Origin: Crocinitomicaceae bacterium
GTDB taxonomy: Bacteria; Bacteroidota; Bacteroidia; Flavobacteriales_D; Crocinitomicaceae
Assembly (NCBI GenBank): GCA_002709305.1
Contig: PAQM01000012.1
Span: forward strand, 13,047 to 77,046
Direction of reading: 5' to 3'
Length of the DNA: 64,000 bases
The notes under the pieces: model-generated
Told to the model about the DNA's origin: nothing
The model's database searches: none
The model's input: the letters and a program-made list of their open reading frames with translations, nothing else
In this document: positions 40,602-48,553 of the stretch, in pieces
Layout: each line of letters opens with the position of its first letter
Numbering within the stretch: the stretch's first letter is position 1
Made by a program: the position numbers and the translations under genes

Positions 40602-42256
40602 CTAGATATATTCAATTTGGGAATATGAATAGAATTTGAATAATTTACATCATGTTTATTTAGATATTCTTGATGCTTATTTAGATATACATATAAAAAG
40701 TCATCAAAACTAGGTTTTATATTACACCATAAATTTTGAATTAGTGCTAATGATCTTGGATATGCCATATATTCAACTTGATCTATTGATGTAATATATT
40801 CAGTCCAAATATTAGCTTGACCACCAAGAATATACTTTGCATCAATTTCATTCATTCCTTTTGGAATAGGATTGAAGTTATAAACTTTTTCTAACGGTAA
40901 ATAACCACCAATTGCTAAAGGTTCAGAAAAATGACTACTTTGATAATAATCAAAATAGCAATGAGTGTTTGGTGACATTACAACATAATGTCCTTGAGAA
41001 GCTGCCTCTTTACCTCCCTTGTCTCCTCGCCATGACATAACAGTTGCATTAGCTGAAAGTCCACCTTCTAATATTTCATCCCAACCAATTAATTTCTTCC
41101 CTTTTTTCATCAAAAAATCATCCATTCTTTTTATAAAATAACTTTGAAGTTCTTCTTCATTTTCTAGATCATTATCAATAATAACTTTTTGACAACTAGA
41201 GCATGAATTCCATCTTTTTTTGGGGGCTTCATCTCCACCAATATGGATATATTCGAATGGAAAAAGATCTATTACTTCCTTAAGAATGTCTTGAATAAAA
41301 AGAATAGATTCTTCCTTTGAACAATAAATATCTTCAAAGATACCCCATAAACCAGGCACTGGTTTTTTTAATCCATTACAAGAAAATTGAGGATAAGCTG
41401 CTAAAGCAGATCTGCTGTGACCTGGCATTTCAATCTCAGGAACAATATTTATATATCTAGATTGTGCATAAGAAACAACCTCTTTGATTTCATCTTGAGT
41501 ATAAAATCCACCATATTTTTCAATGGTATATGATCTAGGTTTTTTACTATAATGTCCTTCTATTGTACTATCTCTATATGCACCAATTTTTGTCAATTCT
41601 GGATATTTTTTTATTTCAATTCTCCAACCTTGATCATCAGTCAAATGCCAATGAAATGTATTAAATTTATAATAGGACATTAATTGTATAAACTTTTTTA
41701 TTTCATCAACTGAGAAAAAATGCCTACTAACATCTAGATGTAAACCTCGCCATTGAAACTTAGGCGAGTCTATTACTTGACATTTTTTTATAAACCACTT
41801 ACCAGTTTCACCTTCAATTAACTGTAAAAGTGAATTAACAGCATAGAAACAGCTAGCATCTGAAGTATATTTAACTTCAATATGATCATTGACAGAAATT
41901 GAATAAAAATCTTTTGGTAAATTAATTGCAGTAGAATCATCACTTAATGATTTTTTTATAAAAAGAATTGTTGGAATTACTTTATCCTCTTTTTTTAAAA
42001 TATTATAATGTTTATTTAATTCATAGCTAAAGAATTGAGAAATATTTTCGGGTATATCATCATCATTAAAGAATACAAATTTTTCAATCGAAATAAAGCC
42101 TTCGATTTCATTATATTTTTGTGGGGTAGGTATTATTGGGGATATTTTTTGAGCTAAATTAAGATAAGGAATAAAGAAAATAAATAAGAACAAAAGGTAT
42201 CTTATCCTGCTACAAGTAGGAACTTGTAAATTACATATTTCTTCTATATTGACCAC
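40583..42256 (-). CDS. Beta-N-acetylhexosaminidase, GH20 (catalytic part; frame lost at a ten-A run)
   Basis: Removes terminal GlcNAc/GalNAc from chitin fragments and glycans. The 557-residue frame has an export segment ([18 protein letters not shown]), the GH20b domain at about 45-155, and the catalytic barrel from about 165: [56 protein letters not shown], and the Asp-Glu pair in [12 protein letters not shown]. It ends abruptly at RKKKWY because of a ten-A run; the natural C-terminus is the frame at 39916-40601. The GTG at 42256 overlaps icmF by 26 nt; a start nearer the signal peptide (an in-frame TTG about 23 codons in) is possible. Confidence 0.88.
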
Positions 42257-45200
42257 CTACTTCAAATAGAGCTGATGTTATTTGACCCAAAGATGATACT
42301 TTGCAAACATCCATCAACTTTTCAAAAATATTTTCATTATCAATTGCAGCATTTTTTAATTCACCAATCATATCATCAGTATTATGCTTTTTATGCAGCT
42401 CAGTAAGCATATCTATTTGATATTTTTTCTCGTCTTCATTGGCTCGAATAACTTCTTCTGGTTTTATTGTTGGAGATCCATCTTTACTTAAAAAAGTATT
42501 TACTCCTATAATAGGAAAATCTCCATTATGTTTTAAAGTTTCGTAATGTAGAGACTCTTCTTGAATTTTTGAACGTTGATACATTGTCTCCATCGCACCT
42601 AGCACCCCTCCTCTTTCTGTAATTCGATCAAATTCCATTAACACTGCCTCTTCAACTAAATCAGTTAATTCTTCAATAATAAATGAACCTTGCATCGGAT
42701 TTTCATTTGATGTCAATCCAAGTTCTTTATTAATTATTAATTGTATTGCCATTGCTCTTCGAACCGAAGCTTCAGTTGGAGTTGTAATTGCCTCATCATA
42801 AGCATTAGTATGTAATGAATTACAATTATCATATATAGCATAAAGCGCTTGCAATGTTGTTCTGATATCATTAAAATCAATTTCTTGCGCATGCAAAGAA
42901 CGACCTGATGTTTGAATATGATATTTAAGCATTTGAGATCTTGAATTTGCGCCATACTTATATTTCATTGCTTTAGACCAAATCTTTCTAGCGACCCTTC
43001 CTATGACTGCATACTCAGCATCAATTCCATTTGAAAAGAAAAACGATAAATTTGGACCAAATTCATTGATATCCATTCCTCTACTTAAATAATATTCTAC
43101 ATAAGTAAATCCATTTGCAAGTGTCAAGGCTAATTGTGTTACAGGGTTAGCACCTGCTTCTGCTATATGATAGCCCGATATCGATACAGAATAAAAATTT
43201 CGCACTTTACTATTTATAAAATATTCTTGAACATCACCCATTAAGCGAAGAGCAAACTCTGTAGAAAAAATACATGTATTTTGGGCTTGATCTTCTTTTA
43301 GAATATCAGCTTGAACTGTTCCGCGAACTACATTTAAAGTATTTTGTTTTATTTTTGTATAAACTTCTTTAGGTAGAACTTGGTCACCTGTCACACCTAA
43401 TAAAAATAAGCCTAAACCATTATTACCCTCAGGTAAATCTCCTTGATATTTTGGTCTAGTAAGATTGTTTCTCTTATAAATTGAATCAATTTTATCTAAA
43501 ATCTCATTTTCCAATCCATTCTCTTTAATGTATTTTTCACATTGTTGATCAATAGCTGCATTCATAAAAAATCCTAACAAAATCGGAGCCGGTCCATTAA
43601 TAGTCATGGAAACAGATGTTTTTGGATCTACTAAATCAAAACCAGAATATAATTTTTTTGCGTCATCTAAACAACATATAGAAACTCCAGCATTACCAAT
43701 TTTACCATAAATATCTGGTCTCAATCCCGGATCATTTCCATAAAGTGTAACAGAATCAAAAGCAGTAGATAAACGTGCAGCAGGCATACCTGAACTCAAA
43801 TAATGAAATCTCTTATTTGTACGTTCTGGTCCACCTTCTCCGGCGAACATTCTTGAGGGATCTTCACCAATGCGCTTAAAAGGATATAGACCTGAAGTAA
43901 ATGGGAATTCTCCAGGAACATTCTCTTGTAAAGACCATTCTAAAATATCTCCCCAATCAGAATATTTAGGTAAAGATATTTTTGGAATTTTTAGATGAGA
44001 AAGTGATTCAGTATAAGTATTAATTTTAATCTCCTTATCTCTGACATGAAATGAATAAATTGGTTCTTTATACTTTTTCACTTTTTCATTCCAGCCAGTA
44101 ATAATTTCCCAATTATGGGGGTCAAGATTCATTTTAATATTATCAAATTCAGATATAAGTGACTTTAATAGTGAACTTTTTTCTTTTTTTATGTTTTTGA
44201 TGCAGCTAGAATCAATACCATTTTTATCTAATAAAATTGTTCCATCAACTATAGTCTCTATTGTTTTAAAAATACCGTACAATTTTTGAGCTACATCCTT
44301 TTGTGTTTTAAGACTAGAATCATATAATCTAATACTTTCTGAAATTTCGGATAAATATCTTGTCCTATTAGGTGGAATAACAAAAATCTTCTCACTCATC
44401 TCCTTAGAAATTTGAAAATTAGATTGCAAGTCAGCACCAGTTTTTTCTACTATTTTGTCAATAATTGATTTATATAAAGAATTTACACCAGGATCATTAA
44501 ACTGAGAAGCAATAGTCCCAAATACAGGTAATTCACTTTCATGCTTATCCCATAAATTATTATTTCGAACATATTGTTTCTTCACATCCCTTAGAGCATC
44601 CATAGATCCTCGCTTATCAAATTTATTAATTGCTACTAAGTCAGCAAAATCTAACATATCTATTTTCTCTAACTGTGTTGCAGCACCAAATTCAGGCGTC
44701 ATAACATATAATGATGTGTCTGAATGTTCTATAATTTCTGTATCTGATTGTCCAATACCTGAGGTTTCTAATATGATCAAATCAAATTGAGCAAACTTTA
44801 ATACTTCGACTGCTTCATTTACATATTTTGAAAGAGCTAGATTAGATTGTCGAGTTGCTAAAGAACGCATATAAACACGAGGATGATTAATTGAATTCAT
44901 TCTAATTCTGTCACCTAATAAAGCACCACCAGTTTTTCTTTTTGATGGATCTACAGAAATAAGTCCAATTGTTTTTTCTGGAAAATCTATTAAATATCTT
45001 CTAACTAATTCATCAACTAAAGAAGACTTGCCTGAACCACCAGTACCTGTAATTCCTAATACAGGAATTTTTGATTTCTTATTCTTCTCTACTATCCTAT
45101 CTAAAATTTCTTTTGAAACTTTCGGGAAATTTTCAACCGAAGAAATTAGACGAGCCAAAGAACCTGCATCTTTGTTTATTATATTATTTATATCAATCTT

Positions 45201-45653
45201 TAATTTTTTGCCTATTGGAAAATCAGACTTCATTACTAGGTCATTAATCATACCTTGTAATCCCATTTCACGTCCATCATCTGGAGAATAAATACGTGTA
45301 ATACCATAATCCATAAGATTTTTTATCTCACTTGGTAAAATTACACCTCCACCTCCACCAAAAATTTTAATATGTTCTGCACCTCTTTCCTTTAATAAGT
45401 CAAACATATATTTAAAATACTCATTATGTCCACCCTGATATGAAGTGATAGCAATGGCATTAACATCTTCTTGAATAGCACAGTTAACAACCTCGTCAAC
45501 ACTTCGATCATGTCCCAAATGTATTACTTCAACACCTGTTGACTGAATGATTCTTCTCATTATATTTATAGCAGCATCATGACCATCGAATAGTGCAGCA
45601 GCAGTAACGATACGCACTTTGTTTTTTGGTTTATATATATGTACTTCTGACAT
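42231..45653 (-). CDS. icmF: Fused isobutyryl-CoA mutase (B12 domain, MeaB-like GTPase, mutase)
   Basis: A 1140-residue fusion that interconverts isobutyryl-CoA and butyryl-CoA (or related acyl-CoAs) with adenosylcobalamin. Domains in order: the cobalamin-binding domain at 10-145, with the lower-ligand motif [13 protein letters not shown] and [12 protein letters not shown]; the G-protein chaperone domain at about 190-480, with P-loop [12 protein letters not shown] at 200-211; and the mutase barrel at about 540-1140, with [20 protein letters not shown] and [20 protein letters not shown]. The order is that of IcmF, not of methylmalonyl-CoA mutase. The GTPase loads and protects the cofactor. It is divergent from the photolyase operon and followed by the GH20 gene. 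Confidence 0.95.
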
Positions 45654-45661
45654 GAGTATAA

Positions 45662-45681
45662 AATTGTTTTTTTAAACAATT
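45662..45681 (-). repeat. Inverted repeat in the icmF leader
   Basis: AATTGTTT (45662-45669) and AAACAATT (45674-45681) form an 8-bp stem with a 4-nt loop, located between the icmF promoter box and its ATG (45653). It could be an mRNA hairpin or an operator half. It is all A/T except one pair. Confidence 0.4.
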
Positions 45682-45696: not shown

Positions 45697-45794
45697 AGAA
45701 TTTAAGGATTAAAAAAATAAAGTTAAAAGGTATTTAATTAATAATTAAAAAACATTTATATATAAAAATAAAATACTGATTAACAGTTTTTTAA

Positions 45795-45923
45795 GTTTAA
45801 AAATAAGATCAAAACAATGTATTACAATCTTTATTTAATTAATAATGTTTAACTTTTTTTATAAAATATTAAACATTTTGTTTAATTTTGTTTAAGATTA
45901 CTGTTAAAAAGTTAAACAAAATG
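45795..45923 (+). promoter_or_regulatory. Operator-like array of phased GTTTAA/TTAAAC sites with promoter of the PTPS-folE-photolyase operon
   Basis: GTTTAA occurs at 45795, 45847, 45880 and 45890, and its complement TTAAAC at 45869 and 45912. Start-to-start spacings are 52, 22, 11, 10 and 22 nt, close to multiples of one helix turn. The 12-mer CATTTTGTTTAA (45874-45885) recurs as a perfect inverted copy at 45912-45923, across the ATG of the first gene, and the core TTTTGTTTAA is also tandemly repeated (45876-45885, 45886-45895). A TAnnTTTG box (TAATTTTG, 45883-45890) lies inside the array, so a bound protein would control this promoter. Confidence 0.6.
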
Positions 45924-46334
45924 GAAAATAAAATCTCAGTTGTTAGAAAAGAACACTTTAATTGTGCTCATCGTCTTCATAATAATGATTGGACAGATGA
46001 ACAGAATAAGTCCTTCTATGGAAAATGCAACAATCCTAATTATCACGGACACAACTATAACTTAGAGGTAACAATAACTGGTGAATTAAATAAAGAAAGT
46101 GGTTATTTAATAGACATGAAAGTTTTATCCAAAATAATGAAAGAAGAGGTATTAACCCCCTTTGATCACAAAAACCTTAATTTAGATGTTCCAGATTTTA
46201 AAGAACTTATACCTACTGCAGAAAACATTTCCATAGTTATATACAACAAACTGGCTAATAAATTAGACAGTAAATTTAATATCAAAATTAAACTTTATGA
46301 AACTGAAAGAAACTCCGTCATATACCCAGCATAG
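45921..46334 (+). CDS. 6-pyruvoyl-tetrahydropterin synthase / 6-carboxytetrahydropterin synthase-like
   Basis: A 137-residue pterin enzyme acting on dihydroneopterin triphosphate, the product of FolE encoded next. Zinc ligands His17 (NCAHRL), His42 and His44 (NYHGHNY) and the catalytic Cys36 (YGKCNNP) are present. The ending IKLYETERNSVIY has the family Glu. The ATG at 45921 gives MENKISVVRKEHFNCAHR; an in-frame TTG at 45888 lies inside the promoter array and is unlikely. It is first in the PTPS-folE-thioredoxin-photolyase operon. It could make a queuosine precursor (QueD) or a tetrahydropterin; no queC/queE lies here, so a pterin cofactor role fits better. Confidence 0.88.
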   Translation: MENKISVVRKEHFNCAHRLHNNDWTDEQNKSFYGKCNNPNYHGHNYNLEVTITGELNKESGYLIDMKVLSKIMKEEVLTPFDHKNLNLDVPDFKELIPTAENISIVIYNKLANKLDSKFNIKIKLYETERNSVIYPA

Positions 46335-46995
46335 TGACACTTACGATTTATTTGAGGATGAAATTGGAGATAATCATATTTCAACCTCAATTGATACTCC
46401 AATGAGAAATGATGCATTCGACATTTCTGATACGAAAAAAAAGAAAATTATCTCCAAACATTTTAAAGCAATTATGGAGACACTTGGATTAGACCTAAAT
46501 GATGACTCATTAAATGGTACACCAAACAGAGTTGCAAAAATGTATATTGATGAAATTTTTTACGGGTTAAATCCTAAAAACAAACCAAAAATTGCGCTTT
46601 TCGATAATAAATATCAATATAACGAAATGCTTGTAGAAAAAAACATTACTTTTCATTCAAACTGCGAACATCATTTTGTTCCTATATTCGGAAAGGCTCA
46701 TGTTGCATATATTTCTTCAGGTAAAGTAATTGGTCTATCAAAAATAAACAGAATTGTTGACTACTTTTCTAGGAGACCCCAAGTTCAAGAGAGATTAACA
46801 AATCAAATTGGTAATGAACTTAAAGATATATTAGATACAGAGCATGTTGCTATTATTATCGATGCAAAACATATGTGTGTATCTTCTAGAGGGATAAAAG
46901 ATATTGCATCACAGACCGTAACTTCATTTTATTCAGGTGACTTCATGATAGAATCTACAAGAAATGAATTTTTAAATCACATAAAAACCTCTTAA
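46297..46995 (+). CDS. folE: GTP cyclohydrolase I
   Basis: Opens the GTP ring to form dihydroneopterin triphosphate, the first step of folate and pterin synthesis. The 232-residue protein has zinc ligands Cys123 and His126 (SNCEHHFVPI) and Cys194 (KHMCVSSRG), with the same spacing as the Escherichia coli enzyme, plus GLSKINRIVDYFSRRPQVQE. The start overlaps the PTPS gene by 38 nt in another frame; the opening residues (MKLKETPSYTQHS) are poorly conserved, while DEIGDNHISTSIDTPMRNDA matches relatives. It is probably translationally coupled to PTPS. Confidence 0.95.
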   Translation: MKLKETPSYTQHSDTYDLFEDEIGDNHISTSIDTPMRNDAFDISDTKKKKIISKHFKAIMETLGLDLNDDSLNGTPNRVAKMYIDEIFYGLNPKNKPKIALFDNKYQYNEMLVEKNITFHSNCEHHFVPIFGKAHVAYISSGKVIGLSKINRIVDYFSRRPQVQERLTNQIGNELKDILDTEHVAIIIDAKHMCVSSRGIKDIASQTVTSFYSGDFMIESTRNEFLNHIKTS

Positions 46996-47005
46996 CTTAC
47001 ACTAT

Positions 47006-47248
47006 ATGGAACTAGTAATGATAACACAAAAAGGTTGTGGTCCTTGTGAGAAAATGAAACTAATTGCACCAAAAAAACTATTGAAGTACAATATTCCTAT
47101 CAAATTTGTTGATTTAGAACCTATGCCCGAAAACATTCGTCCCCCCTATACACCATACTTTTACTTATTAGATGGAAAAAAAATTATAGAAGAATGGGGA
47201 GGAGACGAAAAAAAACTAATAAAAGTTTTGAAAAGAAATCTTGAGTAA
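47006..47248 (+). CDS. Small thioredoxin/glutaredoxin-like protein
   Basis: An 80-residue thioredoxin-fold protein with redox motif CGPC at residues 11-14 and a cis-Pro segment (PYTPYFYLLDG). It lies 10 nt after folE and 21 nt before the photolyase gene, so it belongs to the same operon. In this setting it may reduce a pathway enzyme or the flavin partner; the target is unknown. Confidence 0.8.
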   Translation: MELVMITQKGCGPCEKMKLIAPKKLLKYNIPIKFVDLEPMPENIRPPYTPYFYLLDGKKIIEEWGGDEKKLIKVLKRNLE

Positions 47249-47269: not shown

Positions 47270-48553
47270 ATGAATATTTTTTGGTATAGAAGAGATTTAA
47301 GAATTAACGATAATACTGCTTTAAATATAGCTCTAAAATCTGGTTCAAAGACTCAAGCAATATTCATTTTCGATTCAAAAATCACAAACGAACTTGAACT
47401 AAATGACCCAAGAATAAGTTTTATATACAAACAATTAGATAAAATCAACAAAAAACTAAATTCATTTGGGTCTTCATTAAAAATATATTGTGGTGATCCG
47501 ATCATAATTTGGCAAAAAATAATTGTAAAATCCAAAATTGACGCAGTTTATATCAATCATGATTATGAGCCGTATGCTATTACAAGAGATGATAAAGTAA
47601 AAAAAATCCTGAAAAATAAAAATATACCATTTTTCTCTTTTAAAGATCAAGTGATTTTTGAAAAAAATGATATTGTTAAAAATGATGGAAATCCATACAC
47701 AGTATTTACTCCGTACAAAAATAAATGGCTAGAAAAGTTTAATTTAAAATCAAATATAACTCATAAGCTACAAAACACTAACAAATTCGAAAAATCGAAT
47801 CATAACTTTCCAAGCCTTAAAGATCTTAACTTTGTTGAATCAAAAATTAAAGTACCTGATTTTAATCTTTCTACAATTCCAGATTATGAAGCTACAAGAA
47901 ATATACCTCACTTAGACAAAACCTCGAAAATAGGTCCACATTTAAGATTTGGTACTATTAGCATAAGGACAATTGTTCGTGAAGCACAAATCAAAAGTGA
48001 AACATACTTGAGTGAACTTATTTGGAGAGAATTTTTTATGCAAATTCTATGGCATTTTCCAAAAGTTGTCACAAACAACTTCAAACCAAAATATAATGGT
48101 ATTGTATGGAGAAATAATAAAAAGGACTTTAAGAAATGGTGCCTTGGAGAAACTGGTTTTCCGATAGTTGATGCAGGAATGAGAGAGCTTAACAAAACTG
48201 GGTTCATGCATAATAGAGTTAGAATGATAACAGCTAGTTTTTTGTGTAAACACTTATTAATTGATTGGAGGTGGGGAGAATCATATTTTGCAAAAAAACT
48301 ACTGGATTATGAATTATCATCTAACAATGGAAACTGGCAATGGAGTGCTGGAACAGGTTGTGATGCATCTCCGTATTTTAGGATTTTTAATCCATATGAA
48401 CAGACAAAAAAATTTGATAAAAATCTAACTTACATAAATAAATGGATTCATGACTTAAATGAATTTTCATATCCTCAACCAATGATAGATCATAAATTTG
48501 CTAGAGAAAGAGCCCTAACTACATACAAAAATGGCCTACTAAATAACTTGTAA
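47270..48553 (+). CDS. phr: Deoxyribodipyrimidine photolyase (cryptochrome/photolyase family)
   Basis: Repairs UV-made pyrimidine dimers using blue light and FADH-. The 427-residue protein has the N-terminal antenna domain (FWYRRDLRINDNTAL, about 1-130) and the C-terminal FAD/DNA domain: WREFFMQILWHFP, FPIVDAGMRELNKTGFMHNRVRM and SSNNGNWQWSAGTGCDASPYFRI, typical of class I CPD photolyases. The folate antenna of such enzymes comes from the pathway started by folE in the same operon. It ends 2 nt from the convergent arsS gene. Confidence 0.93.
   Translation: MNIFWYRRDLRINDNTALNIALKSGSKTQAIFIFDSKITNELELNDPRISFIYKQLDKINKKLNSFGSSLKIYCGDPIIIWQKIIVKSKIDAVYINHDYEPYAITRDDKVKKILKNKNIPFFSFKDQVIFEKNDIVKNDGNPYTVFTPYKNKWLEKFNLKSNITHKLQNTNKFEKSNHNFPSLKDLNFVESKIKVPDFNLSTIPDYEATRNIPHLDKTSKIGPHLRFGTISIRTIVREAQIKSETYLSELIWREFFMQILWHFPKVVTNNFKPKYNGIVWRNNKKDFKKWCLGETGFPIVDAGMRELNKTGFMHNRVRMITASFLCKHLLIDWRWGESYFAKKLLDYELSSNNGNWQWSAGTGCDASPYFRIFNPYEQTKKFDKNLTYINKWIHDLNEFSYPQPMIDHKFARERALTTYKNGLLNNL

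Follow-up and report, generated by a model that had tools for sequence, protein, structure and literature searches.

The locus considered here is best compared with operators of B12 photoreceptors of the CarH/LitR type. In so far as the available part of the source describes them, CarH operators consist of three or four tandem 11-bp direct repeats, overlapping the -35 or the -10 element, while at Pcrt, a Myxococcus xanthus promoter controlled by CarA/CarH, two inverted repeats have been proposed, one upstream of the -35 element and one overlapping it, with cooperative binding of two CarA dimers (PMC9304148). In Pseudomonas, the class II LitR proteins PplR/PmlR are associated, in the accessible portion of the report, with light-inducible genes, among them phrB, folE, cryB and those of an operon that includes a short-chain dehydrogenase gene (PMC9758184). 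For the Bacteroidota, annotation alone places a MerR gene beside crt genes in Nonlabens spongiae and in Sediminicola sp. YIK13, the latter a proteorhodopsin carrier (PMC11855829, PMC4732338); the extracts of these papers that were available name no binding site, light response or wider regulon, and family membership of these MerR proteins is not established. Chryseobacterium lacus produces carotenoids on induction by light, a hypothetical protein being only speculated to act like CarA/LitR, and the term 'MerR' does not occur in the available text of that paper (PMC7064467). MliR, a MerR-like regulator of one marine member of the Bacteroidetes, was set aside as a different protein, lacking an effector domain according to the accessible part of its description (PMC9478572).

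Our literature search, which covered few subscription papers and in which few matches were opened, found neither a study of an operator or light regulator in Bacteroidota nor any account of a B12 photoreceptor controlling proteorhodopsin. In some marine flavobacteria the expression of proteorhodopsin increases in the light; within the same limits, the search found no binding site or tested regulator for this response in Bacteroidota.

The present analysis concerns an array of GTTTAA/TTAAAC hexamers in the window, i.e. the whole 64,000-nucleotide stretch of DNA that was analysed. We consider it very likely that the array is a double operator of a CarH/LitR-type B12 photoreceptor, with repression in the dark and release in the light; binding, repression and the use of AdoCbl and light are inferred, there being no binding, light or transcript data. 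The original prediction, that the array is the operator of a light- or UV-response regulator and that its motif may mark the regulon of that regulator in this clade, holds in that copies of the site precede MerR/B12, proteorhodopsin and glutathione peroxidase genes, but not in the form given to the motif, and light control remains an inference.

Palindromes upstream of the photolyase operon

The six hexamers are present as first described, GTTTAA at 45795, 45847, 45880 and 45890 and TTAAAC at 45869 and 45912, with start spacings of 52, 22, 11, 10 and 22 nt. As judged from sequence, however, the conserved unit is not this row, the phased-hexamer motif as originally written being unsupported, but an inverted pair with hexamer starts 22 nt apart, TGTTTAA-N16-TTAAACA, which occurs twice in the window. 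The first predicted operator palindrome, P1 (45846-45875; exact genome match G000:C12:58892-58921), has counterparts before PTPS in relatives and lies at about -49 to -20 relative to a transcription start inferred to be near 45895. The second, P2 (45889-45918; exact genome match G000:C12:58935-58964), covers the final two bases of the predicted -7 box and leaves 2 nt between its end and the ATG. The two flank the sole TAnnTTTG box, TAATTTTG at 45883-45890, which is the only plus-strand match in 45701-45925 and lies within the array as first noted; the Bacteroidota consensus, and its position at -12/-5, are those given in the available part of PMC9723704.

The 11- and 10-nt steps originate from an extra plus-strand half-site, GTTTAA at 45880-45885, between P1 and P2. 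A distal plus-strand half-site, GTTTAA at 45795-45800, has no TTAAAC partner at 22 nt and probably falls outside the operator; neither extra is regular in the upstream DNA of relatives that was examined. Helical phasing, originally suggested for the hexamers, fits the 22-nt arms and the 43-nt step from palindrome to palindrome, but not the 52-nt step. The 12-mer CATTTTGTTTAA (45874-45885) does have the inverted copy that was described, at 45912-45923, spanning the ATG at 45921. It was rejected as a regulon marker: the genome has five copies versus three of the backwards pattern, and the three copies outside the array lie off exact palindromes, two of these inside ORFs, with no light genes recognised among the ORFs listed around the three.

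The chance occurrence of such features was assessed by shuffling the 267-bp intergenic region, which is 87% A+T, 5000 times with its dinucleotide composition preserved. The shuffled regions carry a mean of 1.29 hexamers, about 0.4 per 80 nt, compared with which the original estimate of 0.1-0.2 was too low; five hexamers in 80 nt were reached by two of the 5000, and one full palindrome appeared in four, the window having two. The window as a whole has no excess of the hexamer (60 copies against 86.5 expected); what is unusual, therefore, is its arrangement at this place.

The palindromes lie upstream of an operon of four plus-strand genes that overlap or abut. The first encodes PTPS, 6-pyruvoyl-tetrahydropterin synthase (45921-46334; Pfam PF01242, E 1.6e-34), the product of which is closest, among solved structures, to those of PTPS (3i2b, E 9.9e-35; 1b66, 2.1e-33), and the 6-carboxytetrahydropterin synthase 4ntm at only 3e-4. 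It is followed by folE, GTP cyclohydrolase I (46297-46995; PF01227, E 6.3e-63), by an ORF for a small protein with a CGPC motif (47006-47248), and by phr, DNA photolyase (47270-48553; PF00875 and PF03441), whose product is most like type I CPD photolyases (best-matching solved structures 1tez, a type I photolyase, E 2.5e-78, and 1owl, 2.8e-78). Since the small protein has no Pfam match at E 0.001, its description as thioredoxin-like rests on the CGPC motif only. Divergent from the operon is a gene for an 1140-residue methylmalonyl-CoA-mutase-family protein (42231-45653, minus strand) with B12-binding and MeaB GTPase domains, which, from its domain order, we take to be IcmF-like; immediately ahead of the start of this gene, near 45663-45680, there is a short inverted repeat with one TTAAAC.

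The candidate regulator and its predicted sites

Exact copies of TGTTTAA-N16-TTAAACA number eight in the organism's own genome (G000), whereas the reversed-pattern control has none. One further copy has exactly one mismatch (L125, between thioredoxin-like and secreted-protein ORFs), and when up to two mismatches are allowed the count is 88, versus 90 for the reversed control. Because this last total is at control level, the exact sites form a class apart, and two-mismatch palindromes were discarded. Gene context, as read from stretches of 14-16 kb together with Pfam, places two of the eight exact sites upstream of the window's photolyase operon, two upstream of a fasciclin gene that is followed by SDR and dioxygenase genes, and one between TonB receptor and O-methyltransferase genes. 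The other three lie upstream of a MerR/B12-binding regulator gene of the CarH/LitR type, 20 nt before a glutathione peroxidase gene, and 41 nt before the gene for proteorhodopsin, which is followed by that for a lycopene cyclase-Blh fusion (CrtY-Blh). A photolyase/cryptochrome gene and a DPRP-type photolyase-related gene are divergent from the peroxidase gene, more than 700 nt from its site. Hits before cryptochrome, carotenoid or MerR genes were originally named as findings that would support the prediction; with the palindrome, they were obtained before the MerR/B12 gene, before proteorhodopsin-CrtY-Blh, and before the peroxidase gene divergent from that for photolyase/cryptochrome. The contig carrying crtB of this genome has no exact site.

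Genes for fasciclin-domain secreted proteins repeatedly carry the predicted operator (by Pfam, L068:3151-4725 and L078:4724-6694; by eye, L134, L137, L138, L178 and L190), and the sites at these genes offer no explanation of why a FAS1 protein should be light-regulated.

The regulator gene (G000:C2:12138-13010, locus L068) is the single match in its own genome when this is searched with the regulator; a second MerR (L036), a 115-residue ORF, was excluded as too short for a cobalamin domain. The regulator has an N-terminal MerR DNA-binding domain (PF13411, E 2e-14; PF00376, E 4.2e-9) and a cobalamin helical bundle (PF02607, E 1.3e-9). For the Rossmann part, PF02310 was not reported by Pfam at E 0.001; the alignment with Thermus CarH spans both domains (5c8d, E 2e-13), with the Trp-x9-Glu-His motif and the lower axial His in register. 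In the alignment of 20 regulators, W143, E153 and H191 do not vary, and conservation of H154 is at least 90%. The motif script used for this comparison extracted regulators from 23 of 30 loci, missing seven, and three of the 23 were left out of the alignment; one of the 23 (L096) lacks the full Trp-x9-Glu-His. The AlphaFold2 model of the regulator (pLDDT 90, pTM 0.82) has CarH as its top Foldseek match (5c8e, E 2.2e-15), with a TM score of about 0.54 and a high whole-chain rmsd. Residues 94-296 of the model superimpose on the CarH cobalamin domains with Z about 19 and an rmsd of 2.4-2.6 A over 188-192 residues, and fit a Chloracidobacterium MerR-type B12 domain equally well. As far as alignment and model can tell, the regulator keeps the AdoCbl-contact residues and the fold of Thermus CarH, use of AdoCbl and of light being inferred. 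A cobalamin adenosyltransferase gene is present in the same genome.

The regulator gene has no ATG before the HTH; in-frame TTG codons of L068 are located at 2082, at the edge of the predicted operator (2083-2112), and at 2115, the latter being the likely start. It lies 2 nt after the operator, which thus abuts the start codon as in the window. Two regulator genes are present in G026 (C2 and C10), and in G011:C5 a regulator fragment with stop codons lies directly before an intact copy.

By the mechanism proposed here, the regulator together with adenosylcobalamin would occupy the TGTTTAA-N16-TTAAACA palindromes in the dark, P1 lying over the stretch where a -33 element is expected and P2 over both the last bases of the -7 box and the point at which the transcript is inferred to begin; RNA polymerase would thereby be excluded. 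Light would break the cobalt-carbon bond, the regulator would leave, and the PTPS-folE-thioredoxin-photolyase operon would be made. The common site on the regulator gene, proteorhodopsin-CrtY-Blh, glutathione peroxidase, the fasciclin operon and the TonB receptor/methyltransferase pair would make of these one light regulon, uniting repair, pterin supply, redox defence and light harvesting.

Conservation, promoter layout and association with the regulator

The comparison comprises 80 genomes, the own genome and 79 relatives, in every one of which a relative of PTPS was found; the PTPS loci are the 30 best-scoring of more than 140 matches listed, minus-strand loci being reoriented. Upstream of PTPS, an exact site is present in 15 of these best 30 and a site with at most one mismatch in 16 (shuffles, 0 and 0.075); it is absent at one mismatch in the other 14, 12 of the genomes concerned being outside the genus. 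Loss of the motif upstream of the orthologous operon in relatives would have told against the original prediction; the palindrome (exact or at most one base off, spacer 15-17) precedes orthologous PTPS in 15 of 17 same-genus loci, window included, the exceptions being G008, in which no regulator was detected, and G016. The site is either single or, in six of the 30 loci (window, L009, L022, L023, L026 and L032), tandem at 42-44 nt. A folE gene follows PTPS within 1.6 kb in 15 of 16 loci with the site versus 4 of 14 without (p=0.0004), the one exception with the site, L008, having only about 345 bases of downstream sequence. The regulator gene is itself directly before PTPS in G014 and G015.

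Proteorhodopsin is encoded in 25 of the 80 genomes, a distant second rhodopsin match in G075 (L237, 25% identity) being excluded. An exact site is upstream in 13 of the 25 and a site with at most one mismatch in 18 (shuffles, 0 and 0.18), and it is absent at one mismatch in seven. Among the matches listed, the PTPS closest to that of G000 (75% identity) is that of G074, a genome from a different family within the order, and G074 also gives the top score against the proteorhodopsin of G000 (82%); this likeness may point to horizontal exchange of light genes.

Nine PTPS promoters have a single site. In eight of them, counting from the first base of the palindrome, a -7-like box begins at a distance of 34-40 nt, which places the operator at about -47 to -18, over the -33 region; in the ninth, L014, the box is inside the palindrome. 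Several of these boxes follow a looser pattern than TAnnTTTG. For three of the tandem pairs (window, L023 and L032), the second palindrome begins at the end of the box and runs across the inferred start into the leader. The PTPS promoters have what is, on these predictions, a repressor-like layout, with no mapped transcription start and without a search for the -33 element. Of the 13 proteorhodopsin promoters with an exact site, the scanned stretch of seven contains no -7-like box, and only two have one at 38-39 nt after the palindrome start; the predicted layout, clear in the PTPS promoters, is not so in those of proteorhodopsin.

Sites with a spacer of 15-17 number 234 in the 80 genomes, compared with 20 for the control pattern. 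A site is present in 55 of 61 genomes with the regulator versus 4 of 19 without (p=2e-8) and, within the genus, in 22 of 22 versus 3 of 12 (p=4e-6). A regulator match was obtained for 64 genomes, of which G002, G008 and G059 (E 5e-5 or weaker) were counted as without. Six of the 61 regulator genomes have no exact site, and G001 (83% complete), one of the 4 of 19, has eight sites with no regulator detected. The p values overstate independence, since the genomes are relatives of one another and some are counted in more than one data set (L132/G014 and L133/G015 are the same genomes).

A further set, selected by regulator profile, comprises the best 80 of at least 590 Bacteroidota regulator loci. 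Within it 42 of 50 sites (spacer 15-17) are at most 800 bp from the regulator, the end of which was taken as its start plus 850, and a one-mismatch site is near the regulator in 51 of 80 loci (0-3 for ten control arms) and lacking there in 29. When 105 arms of the same bases were compared at spacer 16, the real arm gave 40 sites in 33 of the 80 loci and the other 104 at most one each (mean 0.07). In loci picked by protein alone, 7-mer starts are 23 nt apart in 21 of 25 inverted pairs within 60 nt for the 30 PTPS loci, in 23 of 29 for 30 regulator loci and in 40 of 65 for the 80 regulator-profile loci. The concern, raised at the outset, that the same spacing might be frequent in random A+T-rich DNA is met by the reversed-pattern, permuted-arm and shuffle controls, all of which are near zero.

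In the 41 regulator-profile loci with an exact site, on which Pfam was not run, gene types were assigned by eye only. A sigma-factor-like gene is just after the site in 26 of them (including L136, L144, L145, L147, L148, L153, L157-L161, L167, L172-L176, L180 and L184) and the regulator itself in nine, the remaining genes being fasciclin-like, phytoene-desaturase-like, DUF4397-like and PTPS. Pfam analysis of example site-bearing genes identified two sigma factors and FAD-dependent desaturase-like, TetR-type, DUF4397, fasciclin and SDR proteins. The presence of a sigma-factor gene beside the MerR/B12 gene suggests, on gene order, a two-step light cascade in those Bacteroidota. With less confidence than attaches to the window array, we incline to a broader interpretation, in which the inverted repeat is a B12-photoreceptor operator across Bacteroidota, one repressor governing proteorhodopsin/retinal, photolyase/pterin, peroxidase and regulator genes in marine Flavobacteriales and acting elsewhere via a sigma-factor gene.

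Alternative readings and relation to known systems

An intergenic region of 87% A+T, in a window where GTTTAA is frequent (60 copies), calls for chance clustering to be considered; it can, however, be practically discounted, given that the observed clustering was reached by 2 of 5000 shuffles and a single palindrome by 4 of them, and that the reversed, permuted-arm and shuffle controls elsewhere are near zero. A different transcription factor might own the palindrome and merely be encoded, or act, near the MerR/B12 gene, there being no binding data, and sigma-factor genes and one TetR-type gene also carrying the site. Such an arrangement is very improbable in view of the site before the regulator's own gene, both here and, by eye, in 9 of the 41 regulator-profile loci with a site, and of the co-occurrence of regulator and site across the 80 genomes.

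Alternatives that retain the regulator concern its mode of action and its signal. MerR proteins, according to the accessible portion of PMC8156234, bind to palindromes that lie in promoters or overlap them, and may act as activators, and the regulator has a MerR DNA-binding domain; the same protein could bind as an activator, the array being an activation site, and the proteorhodopsin sites, mostly without a recognisable -7 box at a repressor-like distance, would be compatible with this. The repressor-like layout in eight of nine single-site PTPS promoters, and in the tandem pairs of the window, L023 and L032, makes activation distinctly unlikely. Nor need the regulator be a photoreceptor, in that it might sense B12 supply, oxidants or a partner protein: a class II LitR lacks one of two B12-binding domains and acts with a LOV protein (PMC9758184), CarA functions without B12 (PMC9304148), both as described in the available parts of these sources, and a B12 sensor would fit with the operon's divergent neighbour, which encodes a mutase carrying a B12-binding domain. 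This possibility is unlikely but warrants consideration, the cobalamin-contact residues being kept in nearly all of the 20 aligned regulators and the site-marked genes including those for rhodopsin and photolyase. Light-released repression by a CarH/LitR-type protein is the reading that we prefer.

A 30-bp regulon-marking motif together with a candidate photoreceptor makes the light control of proteorhodopsin testable at the bench, and the motif would enable light regulons to be read from Bacteroidota genomes. If the proposal is true, the CarH family has a second geometry of DNA recognition.

With regard to gene content, there is a parallel with Pseudomonas class II LitR, for which the set phrB, folE and cryB resembles that found here. 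By contrast, its site is of the TGTACA type, of the B12-binding region it retains the helical bundle alone, and it has a LOV partner, in so far as the available part of the report describes it (PMC9758184). With regard to operator architecture, Pcrt of M. xanthus is similar to the window array in having two inverted repeats at a promoter, but differs in that, from the accessible part of its description, its inverted repeats decay in relatives and direct repeats are apparently read, whereas here the inverted repeat is conserved in several Bacteroidota orders.

The CarH proteins of Thermus thermophilus and Bacillus megaterium (class I LitR) share with the regulator the MerR and cobalamin domains, Trp-x9-Glu-His, the axial His and the fold, and their operators share with the present one a TnnACA-type half-site, into which the TAAACA contained in each arm fits, and, as far as the PTPS promoters go, a predicted overlap with the promoter, most proteorhodopsin promoters with the site having no such box. 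Direct spacings of 10-11 nt are rare and not enriched in the PTPS and regulator loci, and the columns 11 nt on either side of the arm in the aligned sites have no ACA conservation; tandem 11-bp direct repeats of the CarH type were therefore rejected for these sites. The two half-sites here are inverted at 22-23 nt, with no 11-nt repeat, and the geometry thus differs from that of the known direct repeats. The genes marked by the site also exceed the carotenoid synthesis genes of the CarH systems, extending to proteorhodopsin and to PTPS-folE-photolyase.
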